A stretch of DNA of 64,000 bases. Origin: Flavobacteriales bacterium UBA6770 (GTDB taxonomy: Bacteria > Bacteroidota > Bacteroidia > Flavobacteriales_G > Salibacteraceae). Of the stretch, positions 35,124 through 48,169 are shown piece by piece. Every line of letters begins with the position of its first letter. The first letter of the stretch is position 1. Location of the stretch: contig CAJIZH010000003.1 of assembly GCA_905181875.1 (NCBI GenBank), positions 868,001 to 932,000 on the forward strand, given 5' to 3'. Made by a program: the position numbers and the translations under genes. A model generated the notes under the pieces. That model had not been told where the DNA came from. It saw only the letters and a list, made by a program, of their open reading frames with translations, and did no database searches.

Positions 35124-35675
35124 ATGAAACTTGGGATATCAGGCTTATTTATTTCTTTAGTAGTAATTCTTCAAGCCTTAAACCTTAATGCCCAGTCTTT
35201 GCAGACTGGAGCTATTATTATTGAGTTAAAGGCCATTAACTACAATGACGTTGCCGTTAATGCTAGCTCAAGAGAGTCTGAGGTTCAAATGGATCCTATT
35301 GCAAATACCACTATAATTACATTTGATCCGGTAACATTAATGTCTGATAATGTAGAGTTTGACAAGGCAATTGAAGTTGCAGAATTTGATCCTTTTATTT
35401 TTAAAATGATTATAGATCCTATGATGCTAGACTTTCAAAGTCGTCAGAATGAATATATCGAAGCAACTTGTTTTGCTACTATAAATGGAATAACAAAAAA
35501 AATTGACTTAAAGCTTCTTGTGACAAGCAAAAAAACAAGTACTCTAAATATTTACATGCTAACTGGAACAGGAGCAATTCCTTTGGAAATATTTGAACTT
35601 GGTGATAAGCTGAGTATTTTGAAGGAAGAAATTAAATTTTTATTCACGCAAAATATTACTGCAGCATACCGATAA
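35124..35675 (+). CDS. Secreted protein, possibly distantly YceI-like
   Basis: A 183-residue protein with a signal peptide ending LNAQ. It opens QTGAIIIELKAINYND and contains EATCFATINGITKKIDLKLL and YMLTGTGAIPLEIF, which resemble strands of YceI lipocalin-like proteins; the match is weak. It follows the CDGSH relic by 6 bases and precedes a T9SS cargo gene. Likely periplasmic; function unknown. Confidence 0.68.
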   Translation: MKLGISGLFISLVVILQALNLNAQSLQTGAIIIELKAINYNDVAVNASSRESEVQMDPIANTTIITFDPVTLMSDNVEFDKAIEVAEFDPFIFKMIIDPMMLDFQSRQNEYIEATCFATINGITKKIDLKLLVTSKKTSTLNIYMLTGTGAIPLEIFELGDKLSILKEEIKFLFTQNITAAYR

Positions 35676-35733
35676 GCTCTTTCATACCAACCATTACAGA
35701 TGTCTAGCGTAAATAAAGGTACACTATAAGAAT

Positions 35734-37212
35734 TTGAAACAATCCCTCTCAATATTATTCCTATTAGTGACAATTCTTGTTGTTCCTCAAGCTGCGCACT
35801 CTTCGATAGATGTTTCGGGTAAGGTCACCCAATTCGGAAGTCCTATTCGTTTTCAAAAAGTATATTTTACAGGATCAGGAATCGATACCAGTGCAACTAC
35901 AGACAGCAGGGGTAATTATACCATAAAACTGTCTCCGTTTAATAGTGATGGACTCTTTGTTGGTTATACCAAAAATTGTCTTGGCGATACACTATCGTTA
36001 TTTAAAGAATATGCGTCAATTACGAAATCAGCTATTCTAAACTTCAGGCTTTGTGAACTTATACAATCAACAACAGTAACGGGCAAGGTATTTTATCAAG
36101 GAAATCCTCTTCCAAATACTATAGTCCGCTTCGGTTTTAATTCAGCCAACAATCTTGTTGATAGCGCAGTAACAGATAGTTTAGGCAGTTACCTAAAGAC
36201 GCTTACCGTTGCCTCTCAAGCGAGTGGGCTATTATTCGTATCCATTAAAAACTGTGATGAACAAAACTTAGAAAAATCTACTTTCTACTCTGCAAATGAT
36301 ACTTGTAATTTAAACTTCCAATATTGTGTTGGGGGCAATTTCAAAGTATTGACAGGTAGAGTAATTAATGATAGTATTCTATTTAAGAAAAATGATGTTA
36401 ACTTATATTTATTTGAGTACGACCAAAAAGTCAGGCAACTTAATTTACTTGAAAAACAAACTTCAGATATTGAAGGTGTATTTCGCTTCTTATTAAATAG
36501 AGGTAATCAGTACATTCTCAAAGCAGTTCCAAAAAACGGATTTCCACTTAGCCCAAATTACTTCGGAAATACATTGTTCTGGAATGAAGCTGAGGTGATT
36601 TCCTTTATGGGAGATTCTATCCGACATATTGATATTCCACTAGGGTGCTTATCAAGGTCAACTGGGGATGCCGATATTATAGGAAAAATACAAGACAATA
36701 GAATTAATAGATATAATCCACACACAATTTATTTGTTAAATAATGCGTTAGAATTAATAGATTATGAAAGTTGTAACGAAAGTGGAAACTTTCAATTCTC
36801 CAATATCCCTGCTGGAAACTACATACTGCACACTGATGTTGTAGGGCTTCCTACCAATGCTCCTAATTTTACATTAAAATCAAATTCTGTTCTATCAGAC
36901 TATACTATCGTTGTTTCCAAACAAGAGGTTTATTATGAAATCGAGGCGCTTGGAGCCCTAGAAAATAAAATGATAGAAGGCTTATCCATTTTCCCGACAC
37001 CATTCCAAAATCAACTTCAAATTCGTTCAAACCTTGATCAATTCAATTCACTTATTATAAAAGATATTACAGGTAAAGTCGTTCATGAGGCAACCCTTTC
37101 GCCATTTTCCACGTCTAATATAAATACTGCAATCTGGGAACGAGGTGTTTACATGATTTATAGGTTTTATGGAGGTCAAATTGGTAAAGTAACAAAAACG
37201 ATAAAACAATAA
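35734..37212 (+). CDS. T9SS-sorted surface protein with carboxypeptidase-regulatory-like repeats
   Basis: A 492-residue exported protein starting at TTG (no ATG is available in frame). After the signal peptide (to about residue 22) come repeated beta-sandwich modules of the SdrD-B/carboxypeptidase regulatory type: IDVSGKVTQFGSPIRFQKVY, TTVTGKVFYQGNPLPNTIV, KVLTGRVINDSILFKKNDV and DIIGKIQDNRINRYNPHTI. Each early module has a paired cysteine (KNCLGD...LCEL, KNCDEQ...CNLNFQYC). The T9SS sorting domain starts IFPTPFQNQLQIRS and ends VTKTIKQ. The ECF sigma gene starts one base after its stop, so cargo and regulator are in one transcript. Confidence 0.85.
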   Translation: MKQSLSILFLLVTILVVPQAAHSSIDVSGKVTQFGSPIRFQKVYFTGSGIDTSATTDSRGNYTIKLSPFNSDGLFVGYTKNCLGDTLSLFKEYASITKSAILNFRLCELIQSTTVTGKVFYQGNPLPNTIVRFGFNSANNLVDSAVTDSLGSYLKTLTVASQASGLLFVSIKNCDEQNLEKSTFYSANDTCNLNFQYCVGGNFKVLTGRVINDSILFKKNDVNLYLFEYDQKVRQLNLLEKQTSDIEGVFRFLLNRGNQYILKAVPKNGFPLSPNYFGNTLFWNEAEVISFMGDSIRHIDIPLGCLSRSTGDADIIGKIQDNRINRYNPHTIYLLNNALELIDYESCNESGNFQFSNIPAGNYILHTDVVGLPTNAPNFTLKSNSVLSDYTIVVSKQEVYYEIEALGALENKMIEGLSIFPTPFQNQLQIRSNLDQFNSLIIKDITGKVVHEATLSPFSTSNINTAIWERGVYMIYRFYGGQIGKVTKTIKQ

Positions 37213-37213
37213 A

Positions 37214-37792
37214 ATGCGAATAGTAGTAAAAAGTAAGTTGATAAAAGCTTGCATAAAGGGAGAGCGTAAGGCTCAGCAGTCTCTTTATCAAGCTTGCTTT
37301 CAGCCTTTGCTAAGTATCTGCATGCGTTACAAGAACAATCAAGAAGATGGTGTTTCAATATTAAACGATGCCTTTCTTAAAATTTTAACAAACATAGAAT
37401 CTCTAGATCCTAACATTCCCTTCGAAGCTTGGGCTAAGCGTATCACTATCAATTGTTGTATCAACGATTATAGAAAAAATCGTGCTAAACCAGTTATTCT
37501 TTCTTACGATGATGAATATGTTAGAGAACCTAGCATACACGCTTTCGAAATTGAGGAAGAAGATCATGTTGGAATTACACTAAAAAAACTAAAAGAGCTT
37601 TTAGTTAAAGTTCCTGCCAGTTCCCAAGAAGTGTTTCAGCTGTACATACTTGAAGGTTATACACATAAAGAGATTGCTGCGATTCTAAAAATTTCGGAGG
37701 GTACTTCCAAATGGCATTTAAACAATGCTAGAGGTAAGCTTAAGGAAATTATTCTTGAGTCACAAAATAGAATTAGCAAAATCGCTCTATGA
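37214..37792 (+). CDS. ECF-type RNA polymerase sigma factor
   Basis: A 192-residue sigma-70 family regulator. Region 2 spans about residues 15-85 (QQSLYQACFQPLLSICMRYK, DAFLKILTNIE, FEAWAKRITINCCINDYRKN), and region 4 about 125-180 (KVPASSQEVFQLYILEGYTH, KEIAAILKISEGTSKWHLNN, ARGKLK). Region 3 is absent, as expected for ECF sigmas. It should direct RNA polymerase to a small set of envelope genes. Its ATGA stop/start overlap with the next gene implies coupled synthesis with the putative anti-sigma protein. Confidence 0.92.
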   Translation: MRIVVKSKLIKACIKGERKAQQSLYQACFQPLLSICMRYKNNQEDGVSILNDAFLKILTNIESLDPNIPFEAWAKRITINCCINDYRKNRAKPVILSYDDEYVREPSIHAFEIEEEDHVGITLKKLKELLVKVPASSQEVFQLYILEGYTHKEIAAILKISEGTSKWHLNNARGKLKEIILESQNRISKIAL

Positions 37793-39249
37793 GCCTAAAC
37801 GATATCGACAGACTTGTTAAGTCCGCCTTTAGGACTGAAGAGTACTCCTATAAAAATAAATACTGGAAAGATCTTGAATCTAAGCTTGGTCCATCTAAAA
37901 GCGGAAGCCCTTTTGGAAAGATCCTTGGCGCTCTTGCGGTTATCATTGCGGGATTCTCTATTAGCACCGATCAATTAAATATTACACCAACAGTAACCTC
38001 TTCTCAAAATACTACTGAATTACGCGCTTTTAAAGATGGCTCTAAATCCACAGTTTTACTTGACCTAAATACCGCTTCCATCAGTACCGAATTACAATCT
38101 GATATCCAAAGCACAAACGGAAATAATACTGTTACAAATAAATCTTCTTCAGCTCTTAGCATTATTCGATTTAAAAATGAATTAACGGAATCTTCTATTC
38201 TTACTTCTAATTCCTCAGTTAAAGAAACCGCAAATATTAGTGCATTGGTTTCTTTAGAAAATGAGTCAACTCAAACTACCTACTCAGAGGAAGTTCTATT
38301 TGATAAATCTTCTCAAACTACTGAAAATGTTGCTTTAACTAGATTCCCGAAAATTAATTCGAAGCAAATTTCGGGCATATCTTTTAAAACTGCAAATGAA
38401 GAACTTGATCGGCCACTGGCAGATGAAACTGAGTTTGGAGGAAAAATAAAAGAAAGCTCACTTACTCAGTATTTTATTCAAGGTGGGTTGTATTATCTTA
38501 AATTGAATCCCGATATAATTGATCAAAACAATATTCCAGAAGACTTTGAAAAAGAGTTTAAATCCTTTGGTATGAGTGGTGGTGAAATTTTAGTGGGGAT
38601 GAAACGGAAAGGATTCAAAATAGCTTCTGGTATTGGTGTTTCATCTATTTCAAAAACTTTCGCCTATAAATTCAGCGAAGAAAATATAAGTACTGCTGAG
38701 ATTATTAACTCCACAAACTATTTAGACAATGTTGATAGTTCATTTTCTCACTATGAAATCAATGAGTTCCAAAATAACAATAACTCAAACTTCGATATTG
38801 GCGCTTCGGTATATCAGGTAGATTCAAATTTTATTACAGTTACTGACACGATAAGAACAACATCTAAAGAGGTCATAGAAAGTAATATTGCTTTGGCTTA
38901 TCAACTCAATTATTTAAACATTCCCATTCAAATTGGGTATGAAATAGATATTAAACGCTTTTTTGTAGATATAAATGCTGCAATACAATTAGGTGTCCTA
39001 ACCAACTACAACGGCTATAAGTACAACGACAAAGCAGAAGGTTCAAAAACAATCATTACCTCAACCTACTTAAACCCCGTTACCCTTAGCTACTCTGTTG
39101 CTGTTGGGGCTGGTTATAATATTACTCCAACTATTTCTGTAATTGCACAGCCCGTATACTCAAGTACGCTTGTTGGAGCATTTAAAAACATTAAACCAAA
39201 CAAAATTGCTGGTTTTGGTGGTAAACTAGCCCTTCAGTACCAGTTTTAG
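37789..39249 (+). CDS. Putative anti-sigma protein fused to an outer-membrane beta-barrel-like domain
   Basis: A 486-residue protein overlapping the ECF sigma gene by 4 bases. The N-terminus, MSLNDIDRLVKSAFRTEEYS with YWKDLESKL, resembles the short cytoplasmic sigma-binding segments in Bacteroidota. One transmembrane helix follows (about 43-58, GKILGALAVIIAGFSI). A serine/threonine-rich linker runs to about 215. The rest looks like a PF13568-type porin-like barrel (YFIQGGLYYLKLN, IPIQIGYEIDIKRFFVDINA, PVTLSYSVAVGAGYNIT, GFGGKLALQYQF with terminal phenylalanine). The likely role is to sense the envelope and hold or release the sigma factor. The topology, with both an inner-membrane helix and a barrel, is unusual and unproven. 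Confidence 0.75.
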   Translation: MSLNDIDRLVKSAFRTEEYSYKNKYWKDLESKLGPSKSGSPFGKILGALAVIIAGFSISTDQLNITPTVTSSQNTTELRAFKDGSKSTVLLDLNTASISTELQSDIQSTNGNNTVTNKSSSALSIIRFKNELTESSILTSNSSVKETANISALVSLENESTQTTYSEEVLFDKSSQTTENVALTRFPKINSKQISGISFKTANEELDRPLADETEFGGKIKESSLTQYFIQGGLYYLKLNPDIIDQNNIPEDFEKEFKSFGMSGGEILVGMKRKGFKIASGIGVSSISKTFAYKFSEENISTAEIINSTNYLDNVDSSFSHYEINEFQNNNNSNFDIGASVYQVDSNFITVTDTIRTTSKEVIESNIALAYQLNYLNIPIQIGYEIDIKRFFVDINAAIQLGVLTNYNGYKYNDKAEGSKTIITSTYLNPVTLSYSVAVGAGYNITPTISVIAQPVYSSTLVGAFKNIKPNKIAGFGGKLALQYQF

Positions 39250-43149: not shown

Positions 43150-44499
43150 CTACTTAAATATTAGCTTATAGACATCATTTCCGTTGGCAAAAACAAACAA
43201 GGAAAGCAATAAAATAATCCCTGCCATTTGAGCGTATTCCATAAACTTTTCGTTTGGTTTTCTGCCAGAAATCATCTCATACAAAGTGAACATTACATGC
43301 CCACCATCAAGCGCCGGAATAGGTAATAAATTCAATACTGCCAGCATAATACTCAAAAAAGCAGTCAGCTGCCAGAATGTTTGCCAATCCCAAACTGGAG
43401 GAAATAGATTTCCAATTGCAGCAAAACCACCAACACCTTTGTACGCTCCTGTGGTTGGGTTAAAAATTAGTTTCAACTGACGCAAATATCCGCTCAATTG
43501 ATCTCCCGCCTTAGAAACTCCCGCAGGAATAGATTCAAAAAAACCATACTGTTTCGTGCTCAATTGATAGTATCCTAGTTTTTGAAGGTCTTCTAAACCT
43601 ATCATTGAATTCATTACGCCAATTTGTCCTTTGTCGTTAATGTTTACTGCAATGTCAATTGGAGAACCATCGCGCTTTACCGTTAAAATAATCGGCTGTC
43701 CGGCAAACTCTTTCAACACTACTTTGTATTCATCAAAATACGTATACTCTTTACCGTTTACAGCCACTATTGCATCTTTAACCATCAAGCCAGACGCTTT
43801 ATTTGGGCTTTCTTCTGGAATTTTTCCAATGATAAAAGGCATTCGATATAAAAACAACATTTTGTTTTCTTTTTCAATCAATGTCTCTATAAAATTTTCA
43901 GGAATTTTTAATGCCTCATTAGAGCCCCCTTCGTGCTGAACATTCACTGTTCCCCCGTATATCATCTCCCCAGTTATTCCGGCAAAACGCTCTATCTTTT
44001 TTCCGTTTATATCAAGAACCTTGTCTCCATTTCTGAACCCCATATCCATTGCCAAAGAATCTGTCACCCACATTCCGCCAGTTAGACTCTCGTTTGGTAA
44101 GTATTTTTCTCCCCAACCAAATAAAACCATAGAATGAATTACCATGGCAAGAATTACGTTGACTGTTACTCCACCCATTAGAATAATAAGACGTTGCCAA
44201 GCGGGTTTACTTCTGAATTCCCAAGGCTGTGGTTCTTTTTTCAATTGTTCTGTATCCATCGATTCATCCACCATGCCCGCTATCTTAACATATCCTCCTA
44301 GCGGAATCCAACCAATTCCGTATTCAGTTTCTCCTCGTTTAAATTTGAAAAGCGAGAATTTATAATCAAAAAACAAATAGAACTTCTCGACTTTAGCACC
44401 AAATAATTTAGCCGGTAAAAAGTGACCCAATTCATGAAGTACCACCAAGATCGAAAGACTTAGCAGAAGTTGACCAACTTTAATTAAAATTTCTTCCAT
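43150..44499 (-). CDS. rseP: RseP family site-2 zinc metalloprotease
   Basis: A 449-residue intramembrane protease. The zinc site HELGH is at residues 22-26 in the first transmembrane helix, and the second ligand motif is NLLPIPALDGGHVMF near residue 400. Two PDZ-like regions lie between (MGFRNGDKVLDINGKKIERF and SGLMVKDAIVAVNGKEYTYF). It cleaves membrane-embedded anti-sigma factors or remnant signal peptides and could act on anti-sigma proteins such as the one encoded at 37.8 kb, which is inference. A perfect 14-bp palindrome lies 17 bases before the ATG. Confidence 0.95.
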   Translation of the reverse strand: MEEILIKVGQLLLSLSILVVLHELGHFLPAKLFGAKVEKFYLFFDYKFSLFKFKRGETEYGIGWIPLGGYVKIAGMVDESMDTEQLKKEPQPWEFRSKPAWQRLIILMGGVTVNVILAMVIHSMVLFGWGEKYLPNESLTGGMWVTDSLAMDMGFRNGDKVLDINGKKIERFAGITGEMIYGGTVNVQHEGGSNEALKIPENFIETLIEKENKMLFLYRMPFIIGKIPEESPNKASGLMVKDAIVAVNGKEYTYFDEYKVVLKEFAGQPIILTVKRDGSPIDIAVNINDKGQIGVMNSMIGLEDLQKLGYYQLSTKQYGFFESIPAGVSKAGDQLSGYLRQLKLIFNPTTGAYKGVGGFAAIGNLFPPVWDWQTFWQLTAFLSIMLAVLNLLPIPALDGGHVMFTLYEMISGRKPNEKFMEYAQMAGIILLLSLFVFANGNDVYKLIFK

Positions 44500-45853: not shown

Positions 45854-48169
45854 ATGCTTATGCGACTTATACTTCCGTTATTATTTCTGATAACTTCATT
45901 TGTCTCCAACGCACAATCGGTGCCCATTGGTCAGTGGCAAGATCACCTCACTTATAGCAATGTTCCTTTTGTGAGTTTAGCTAACGGAAAAGCTTATGCC
46001 GCCTCTGAAAGTGGTTTGTTTTCTGTTGAACCATCAGAAAACTCTATAAGCCGATTGAGCACCATTAGCGGGTTATCCAATATTAAAGCAACTGCATTGG
46101 GCAGTGCCTCAGAAAGCGCACCATTATTTATTGGTTATGAAGATGGCGTGATCGATGTGGTTACAGGAAATTCTATTTCTCCTTTAATAGATATTAAACG
46201 TTCTAATATCATTGGCAATAAACAAGTAAATCATTTCAACTTCTACACCAATGAAATCTGCTTTGTAAGTACCGGATTCGGCATTTTACAATTCGATTTA
46301 GTAAAAAACGAAATTACAGAGACCTTTTTAATTGGAGCTAATGGCGGCTACTTATTTGTTAATTCAACAGCTGTTTTCAAAGGTGCATTATGGGCCGCAA
46401 CAGATTCGGGGATATACAGTGCTCTTATTTCTGATGACTTATTTGATCCTGCTAGTTGGACAAAAGATGTGCGGCTTAATGATTCTGTAACCACTTATGA
46501 CAATATAACATCTTACCAAAACACTTTGCTTGTAAATCGATATCAAGAGGGTTTTAGAAAAGATGAATTATTTCTATTTAACGGAACTACCTGGGAGGCA
46601 ATATTAGGAGAGCCTCAAGAGTCTTTTAGGGGATTAAAAGCTGTCGGTGATTTGCTAGTAATAGCAAACAGCACCAGTGTTGAGGTTTATAAAAATGGAG
46701 ATTTTACTAATCAAGTGCAACGCCTATTTGCTGTTGATGAAAAGAGCATTTTGCCGCGCTCTGTAACTTACAGTTCCGAAGGGCATATTTGGACAGGCAC
46801 CTCTGAGAAGGGCTTGATTCGGAGTCGAAACCCTTTTGATAATGATCAGTATTTAATCCCTGGACCGGTATCCACAAAGGCATTTGGGCTGAATTACTCT
46901 TTCGATGAAATTTATGTTAGCGGCGGCGGTGTTTCCGATATTCAGGTTAGAACAAATACTCGGGCTGAGGTTTCTAAGTTTAATGGAACCACTTGGACCT
47001 TATTTTCGGAAGCAACCATAAATCAATTCGACAGCATTGAAGACATTCTAAATACTTCTTTCAATCCCTTAATTCCAACTGAATTTGCCGCAGCAAGCAT
47101 GAATAATGGTCTCATTATATGCGATAATGCTAGCGTCAAAACAATTTATGATGTAAATAATAGCCCGCTGGAATCTCTAGGTGGTTCAGGTGCAACCTTT
47201 GTTACGGGTGTGCGGTATGACGCTAATGGAAACCTGTGGATCTCGAATAGTATTGCCAATAACCCTATAAAGGTTCTTACCGCTGAAGGACAGTGGATTT
47301 CGTTTGCCAGTAATACCGGCGTTCCCGAAACTACCAATCAGCTATTGGTAACCAGCAACAATCAGGTTTGGCAAATAAGACCTGGAAAGGGAATCTATAT
47401 TTTAGGACACAATGGAACCATTAATAACTTTGCCGATGATGATCTTCTGGTACTTCAAGAAGGCGGAGGAAACGGGAAATTAGCAAGTAATGATGTAACT
47501 GCTATGGCCGAAGATAATGATGGAAATGTATGGGTGGGAACCAACATTGGTATGACGGTTTTTTATAATGCAGGCAACATATTATCTGAAAATTCTTTTG
47601 ACGGATCCGAAATTCTTATTACGCAAGATGGTCAAACACAGGTGCTTTTTGAGAACCAGTTTATTACTGACATTGTAGTTGATCCAGCAAATAGAAAATG
47701 GTTTTCTACTCGTGGTGCTGGAGTGTACCTCATGTCTGCTGACGGCACACAGGAGCTCGCGCATTTTACTGCCGAAAACTCACCGTTATATTCCAATAAC
47801 GTGAACAGCTTAGCGATTTTACCAAAAACTGGAGAAGTTTTTATAGCCACAGAACAGGGAATTATTAGCTATAGAGGCGAAGCCATTAGTGGGAATGAAG
47901 ACCTAGAGGATTTATTAGTTTTTCCGAATCCTGTACCTCCAAATTATAATGGAAGTGTTGGTATTTCTGGACTAACGAATAATGCTGAAGTTATTGTTTC
48001 AGATGTTGGCGGATCGGTAGTTCAACGACTTACCAGTAGCGGAGGACAGGCTGTTTGGGACCTTCTTAATCAAAATGGATCTCCCGTTCAGAATGGCGTT
48101 TATTTGATTTATGTGGTCTCTGAAGAAGGAGATCAAAAAGCAGTTTCCAAAGTGCTTGTAGAGCGGTAA
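45854..48169 (+). CDS. porZ: Type IX secretion attachment-complex protein PorZ
   Basis: A 771-residue exported protein. After the signal peptide (ending SNAQ) the opening PIGQWQDHLTYSNVPFVSLA and ESGLFSVEPSENSISRLSTI are typical of PorZ. Two beta-propeller domains of the two-component-regulator type follow (GHIWTGTSEKGLIRS, NVWVGTNIGMTVFYNAG, ANRKWFSTRGAGVYLM), and a C-terminal sorting-like domain (LLVFPNPVPPNYNGSV to KVLVER). In Porphyromonas PorZ works with PorU, PorV and PorQ to attach cargo to anionic lipopolysaccharide after CTD removal. The presence of T9SS cargo elsewhere in the window agrees. Assignment is by architecture and length (about 776 in Porphyromonas). Confidence 0.88.
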   Translation: MLMRLILPLLFLITSFVSNAQSVPIGQWQDHLTYSNVPFVSLANGKAYAASESGLFSVEPSENSISRLSTISGLSNIKATALGSASESAPLFIGYEDGVIDVVTGNSISPLIDIKRSNIIGNKQVNHFNFYTNEICFVSTGFGILQFDLVKNEITETFLIGANGGYLFVNSTAVFKGALWAATDSGIYSALISDDLFDPASWTKDVRLNDSVTTYDNITSYQNTLLVNRYQEGFRKDELFLFNGTTWEAILGEPQESFRGLKAVGDLLVIANSTSVEVYKNGDFTNQVQRLFAVDEKSILPRSVTYSSEGHIWTGTSEKGLIRSRNPFDNDQYLIPGPVSTKAFGLNYSFDEIYVSGGGVSDIQVRTNTRAEVSKFNGTTWTLFSEATINQFDSIEDILNTSFNPLIPTEFAAASMNNGLIICDNASVKTIYDVNNSPLESLGGSGATFVTGVRYDANGNLWISNSIANNPIKVLTAEGQWISFASNTGVPETTNQLLVTSNNQVWQIRPGKGIYILGHNGTINNFADDDLLVLQEGGGNGKLASNDVTAMAEDNDGNVWVGTNIGMTVFYNAGNILSENSFDGSEILITQDGQTQVLFENQFITDIVVDPANRKWFSTRGAGVYLMSADGTQELAHFTAENSPLYSNNVNSLAILPKTGEVFIATEQGIISYRGEAISGNEDLEDLLVFPNPVPPNYNGSVGISGLTNNAEVIVSDVGGSVVQRLTSSGGQAVWDLLNQNGSPVQNGVYLIYVVSEEGDQKAVSKVLVER

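Follow-up and report, generated by a model that had tools for sequence, protein, structure and literature searches.

A probable Dma/Reo-type anti-sigma factor encoded behind an ECF sigma factor and a type IX secretion cargo in Bacteroidota

Introduction

The Dma anti-sigma factors of Bacteroides thetaiotaomicron are built from an N-terminal sigma-binding domain, a transmembrane helix, a disordered tether and a C-terminal barrel (PMC13088901), and Reo of Phocaeicola vulgatus has been described as reaching through all compartments and as a probable sensor of outer-membrane stress (PMC9308784, PMC13114119). In these systems, loss of the anti-sigma factor activates the cognate sigma factor (PMC9308784, PMC13088901, PMC13114119). 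The locus described here was read from a marine Bacteroidota genome assembly, within a stretch of 64,000 nucleotides that was analyzed as a whole and that we call the window, and it comprises three consecutive open reading frames on the plus strand, encoding a type IX secretion system (T9SS) cargo, an ECF sigma factor and a 486-amino acid anti-sigma protein. We file this protein with the Dma/Reo kind of anti-sigma factor by its architecture, its gene order and a shared N-terminal segment, setting it beside the named Dma1, Dma2 and Reo by their descriptions. The chain architecture itself is not new, having been published since 2022 for the Dma/Reo anti-sigma factors of Bacteroidota (PMC13088901, PMC9308784, PMC13114119); the new elements are a fixed T9SS cargo and a promoter signature. 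A partial search of the literature returned no published description of a Dma/Reo-type sensor paired with a T9SS cargo, and where membrane-spanning anti-sigma factors and type IX secretion came together in that search, the former were merely cited.

Results

The coordinates of the locus are collected in Table 1. The sigma gene starts one base past the cargo stop codon and overlaps the anti-sigma gene by ATGA, and both junctions, already noted in the preliminary description, can be seen directly in the sequence. Homologues with this gene order are found throughout the family, so the arrangement is not a matter of chance. The preliminary description took the region to start at position 35,124; the cargo itself begins at 35,734, and 35,124 is the start of a separate gene for a YceI-like protein, whose assignment comes from a weak profile match found in two of the seven upstream-neighbor proteins. 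Because this gene precedes the predicted promoter, it is perhaps outside the operon transcript. YceI-like genes also occur near the sigma/Dma pairs of loci L255-L260, L265, L095, L097 and L098, a distant family included, and in L257 the YceI-like gene is accompanied by a DUF5777 barrel.

Table 1. Features of the cassette and of its anti-sigma protein, in window positions
Feature	Position	Strand	Remarks
YceI-like exported protein, 183 aa	35124..35675	+	upstream neighbor kept in seven loci
Predicted ECF-type promoter, CCAACCATTACAGATGTCTAGCGT	35687..35710	+	CCAAC, 16 bases, CGT; 47 nt before cargo start
T9SS type A cargo, 492 aa	35734..37212	+	signal peptide, CarboxypepD_reg-like repeats, C-terminal sorting domain (residues 419-492); TTG start
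ECF sigma factor, 192 aa	37214..37792	+	PF04542/PF08281, TIGR02937; conserved ahead of anti-sigma gene
Dma/Reo-type anti-sigma protein, 486 aa	37789..39249	+	overlaps sigma gene by ATGA
N-terminal segment, residues 1-41	37789..37911	+	invariant D7 and W26; presumed sigma-binding
Predicted transmembrane helix, residues 42-58	37912..37962	+	hydropathy and AF2 model
Disordered, presumably periplasmic linker, residues 59-226	37963..38466	+	AF2; 147-228 aa in 20 homologues
Predicted 8-strand outer-membrane beta-barrel, residues 227-486	38467..39246	+	AF2, foldseek; long beta-hairpin (strands 276-329 and 332-388)

Of the neighboring genes, rseP had been placed 5 kb away. It is indeed nearby (43150-44499, minus strand), at a true distance of 3.9 kb past the end of the anti-sigma gene and in another transcription unit. 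We give this proximity little weight and set a functional link aside, since rseP is near a cassette only where the aldehyde dehydrogenase/antiporter flank is shared as well. The gene for PorZ, a T9SS anionic-LPS delivery protein (NF052228, E 4e-167), lies at 45854-48166 on the plus strand, 6.6 kb from the anti-sigma gene.

The sigma factor matches PF04542, PF08281 and TIGR02937 above their cut-offs. Its identity as SigP was considered and rejected, the match to NF058625 reaching 66.6 bits against a cut-off of 130. Signaling of the FecR type was likewise discarded, in that a domain search found no FecR domain in the anti-sigma protein and the 8-stranded barrel is in the same chain. A Pfam search also found no anti-sigma domain in the 486-residue protein. 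The traits that it has in common with Dma and Reo are a gene adjoining an ECF sigma gene, a single predicted helix after a short N terminus and, in the model, a disordered tether and a C-terminal barrel.

Residues 42 to 58 form the sole hydrophobic helix near the start of the chain, with a mean hydropathy of 2.05, and are followed by a linker of 168 residues (59-226) that is 32% serine plus threonine and that AF2 models as unstructured, with pLDDT mostly 23 to 40. In the AF2 model of the full chain, residues 227 to 485 make up eight beta strands, most of them with pLDDT above 80, of which strands 276-329 and 332-388 extend as a long hairpin; the last residue of the protein is phenylalanine. 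Foldseek returned low TM-scores for the full chain owing to its disordered half, and modeling the barrel part separately (pLDDT 83.8, pTM 0.63) brought a partial gain, limited by the long hairpin; the nearest solved folds to the barrel are NspA (TM-score 0.68 by target length), OmpA, OmpT and OmpW. The layout that had been proposed from the sequence, a short N terminus, one helix, a Ser/Thr-rich linker and a barrel ending in phenylalanine joined in a one-piece anti-sigma/outer-membrane protein, thus agrees with both AF2 and foldseek, with a disordered tether of 168 residues and an eight-stranded barrel in the model, and the structure prediction that had been suggested as a check gives a C-terminal domain of the outer-membrane barrel type and no soluble fold. 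The N-terminal helices are modeled at low confidence (pLDDT about 60).

Among 20 homologues the helix is always present (20/20), and the linker keeps a length of 147 to 228 residues while its sequence drifts. The Pfam OMP_b-brl family is a weak match in the window copy and is matched in 14 of the 20. In the 20-sequence alignment of the N-terminal segment, D7 and W26 are invariant, and a profile of this segment matches 77 of the 78 genes that stand behind a related sigma gene in the named loci, with matches spread across genomes of the phylum. This conservation suggests that residues 1 to 41 would be the part that binds the sigma factor. Fully extended, the 168 linker residues would by simple arithmetic measure about 55-60 nm, and a typical periplasm is narrower than this. 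The protein may sit as one chain in both membranes. A natural fusion of sigma and anti-sigma factor was also sought as a template for modeling their interface, and the best candidate (G320, an open frame reported as 610 amino acids) turned out to be two separate genes. Two further observations concern single Dma loci: the second Dma copy of a same-genus genome (L092:8309-9946) is broken by an in-frame stop codon (TAA) into two open frames, and a further ECF sigma gene lies directly downstream of the Dma gene of L105 (L105:2321-2878, minus strand).

That the genome of the window (2.59 Mb) encodes a T9SS is seen from 105 matches to the sorting domain and from an equivalog of PorZ. The cargo contains repeats of the Ig/transthyretin-like type, and its sorting domain scores 23.9 bits with TIGR04183 (cut-off 23) and 30.8 bits with PF18962 (cut-off 27). 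We examined in detail 44 sigma/Dma loci of the order to which the window belongs, the window included; one more is cut by a contig end. A T9SS cargo is encoded directly upstream of the sigma gene in 23 of the 24 closest loci (clade I), which come from nine genera and have differing flanks, and in 8 of the 20 more distant loci of the same order (clade II), the other 12 having none; 30 of the 31 cargos of the order match TIGR04183 (NCBIfam). In the wider phylum set a cargo is found in 11 of the 73 named loci and is absent from 62. Set against the 105 sorting-domain matches in 2.59 Mb, the counts for the order place the association of cargo and sigma gene far above the genomic background, as counts from related genomes and not as independent samples. 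The own genome contains only one other relative of the cargo, and it stands directly before a second sigma/Dma pair. This second cassette (L219; C3:1018000-1026000) encodes a 331-residue T9SS cargo, a sigma factor, a 422-residue Dma-like protein and a PKD-domain lipoprotein-like protein. The trees of cargo, sigma factor and barrel are congruent, tandem paralogous cassettes included (matrix correlations 0.49-0.68, permutation p = 0.001), and on this phylogenetic evidence the genes of the cassette have been passed on together.

A motif consisting of CCAAC, a spacer of about 16-18 bases and then CGT or TGTC recurs in the upstream regions. It was spotted by eye in the order set, which is therefore the discovery set, and the phylum set provides an independent test; matches were counted within 150 nt upstream, and random windows of the same loci give a background of 2.2%. 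The motif precedes the cargo in 24 of 41 cassettes and the sigma gene in only 1 of 42 of those cargo-bearing loci, and where there is no cargo it precedes the sigma gene in 53 of 75. In the phylum set alone, it is found before 9 of 10 cargos and, where the cargo is absent, before 44 of 61 sigma genes. The strict motif is missing before the cargo in 16 of the 31 cassettes of the order, some of which come second in a tandem and follow another gene directly. At the aligned position, the motif of the window is kept in three of four same-genus genomes and is degenerate in the fourth. In Flavobacterium psychrophilum, ECF promoters are distinguished by a CGT box near -10, and promoters of this kind drive T9SS genes and one sigma/anti-sigma pair (PMC9723704).

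The strict pattern has six matches in the own genome, two of which precede the cargos of the two cassettes, at distances of 47 and 43 nt, and none of which precedes a T9SS machinery gene. The preliminary description had proposed a search for a promoter common to the operon and a possible regulon, and its two halves fared differently: the operon motif was found, and a genome-wide regulon is not supported by the strict pattern, with six matches against ten for the reversed control, so that we claim none and draw only on the matches ahead of the two cassettes. That cargo, sigma factor and sensor are made together, as had been stated, is supported by the conserved gene order and the common promoter predicted ahead of the cargo. 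Given the position of the motif and its conservation before the first gene, it is simplest to suppose that the sigma factor would drive the operon in which it is encoded, beginning with the cargo gene. Several other features of the upstream and intergenic regions were seen. The strict pattern also occurs 87 nt before a gene for a 173-residue protein near the L219 cassette, and in many loci of the phylum (such as L186, L192, L199, L200 and L202) a second CCAAC-CGT motif lies about 3 kb downstream of the sigma gene and is likely a further promoter of the regulon. The cargo-sigma gaps of about 58-92 nt often hold, by eye, an inverted repeat followed by T residues (L102, L103, L105-L109, L117, L121, L124, L126); these repeats resemble a terminator or attenuator, which would allow the cargo to be made in excess over the sigma factor.

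Discussion

We consider it likely that the cassette forms an operon that activates itself, with a sensor that spans the envelope in control of the sigma factor and with a surface protein, secreted from the cell, as the first gene product. In this model, residues 1 to 41 of the 486-residue protein would keep the sigma factor at the inner membrane, and the chain would cross that membrane once and be connected by a disordered periplasmic tether to a predicted 8-stranded outer-membrane barrel with a large hairpin. A disturbance of the outer membrane or surface might then free the sigma factor, whether by pulling, by failed barrel insertion or by proteolysis. The free sigma factor would transcribe from the CCAAC-N16-CGT element ahead of the cargo, as its position and conservation suggest, yielding more cargo, sigma and anti-sigma factor, and the cargo, which the T9SS would carry out and fix to the cell surface, would be the main local output, comparable with the NigD lipoproteins that the EcfO-Reo regulon supplies to the surface.

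A different role for the cargo would be that of a ligand or reporter, in which the exported cargo, or its failed export, is read by the barrel hairpin, and the operon monitors and adjusts the T9SS in a closed loop. This is a possible reading, if a rather unlikely one. The long-term co-inheritance of cargo and barrel speaks for it, as do the PorZ gene 6.6 kb away, the F. psychrophilum T9SS genes under CGT-box promoters (PMC9723704), and the Ig/transthyretin-like repeats and sorting tail of the cargo, which resemble those of PorA, a protein that acts upstream of SigP (PMC7712824); a closed loop has been proposed for PorA and SigP. However, many Dma pairs are without a cargo (12 of 20 in clade II and 62 of 73 in the phylum set), so the cargo is unnecessary for the mechanism, and the strict promoter pattern is not found ahead of T9SS machinery genes in the own genome. 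The more specific proposal that the cargo is the signal read at the surface by the barrel, such that the cell gauges the arrival of an exported protein, we regard as unlikely. That the cargo is a coincidental neighbor, sorting-domain proteins being common in a genome with 105 such matches, is scarcely credible in view of its presence at the same place in 23 of 24 close loci from nine genera with differing flanks, the congruent trees, and the shift of the promoter to the front of the cargo.

The anti-sigma protein can also be read in other ways than as the intact sensor of the self-activating operon. If the chain were cut within its linker, the products would be an inner-membrane stub like that of an ordinary anti-sigma factor and a barrel left free in the outer membrane, and a disordered linker of unconserved sequence would suit proteolysis; yet the length of the linker is held at 147-228 residues in the 20 homologues despite the drift in sequence, and published descriptions of the related Reo and Dma proteins have them extend through every compartment (PMC13114119, PMC13088901), which makes cleavage quite improbable. 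We think it very unlikely that the product of the third gene is an outer-membrane protein that does no more than share a transcript with the sigma gene, its N terminus being an odd signal peptide and the protein no anti-sigma factor at all. The missing Pfam anti-sigma domain and the weak N-terminal model would fit such a protein, but the 41-residue segment with its invariant D7 and W26 (20 homologues) is kept phylum-wide behind such sigma genes, and proteins of the same layout have been shown genetically to restrain their own sigma factors (PMC9308784, PMC13088901).

Anti-sigma factors that extend in one chain from cytoplasm to cell surface are a recent discovery, and a fixed genetic partner on the outside of the cell offers a concrete candidate for their output or ligand. 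With a promoter signature in common, regulons of this class of sigma factors can be predicted throughout Bacteroidota, and the proposed self-activation of the cassette suggests how bacteria with type IX secretion could couple the production of surface proteins to the state of the envelope.

Among known systems, FecR-type cell-surface signaling is similar in its surface-to-cytoplasm control of an ECF sigma factor, as proposed for the window, but FecR systems divide the task between a TonB-dependent receptor and a FecR anti-sigma factor, whereas the window has the presumed sensor and anti-sigma factor in one chain with a predicted 8-stranded barrel. The PorA-PorXY-SigP pathway of Porphyromonas gingivalis also places a protein with an Ig-like fold and a sorting tail upstream of an ECF sigma factor (PMC7712824), but it works through a two-component system, has no fused barrel, and has a sigma factor of the SigP family, for which the window sigma scores 66.6 against 130 bits. 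With the Dma systems, the locus shares a sigma gene adjoining that of a protein with a sigma-binding N terminus (presumed here), one helix, a long tether and a beta-barrel, whereas Dma is tied to vesicle formation, NigD1 and polysaccharide loci, and no T9SS cargo partner is described for it (PMC13088901). Finally, the EcfO-Reo systems of Bacteroides fragilis and Phocaeicola vulgatus have a cytoplasm-to-surface anti-sigma factor, such as is predicted here; in them this factor probably senses outer-membrane stress, with a sigma gene that is strongly stress-induced and a regulon that encodes surface proteins (PMC9308784, PMC13114119). The surface output of EcfO-Reo consists of the NigD lipoproteins of its regulon, whereas the candidate output in the window is the T9SS cargo of the same operon.
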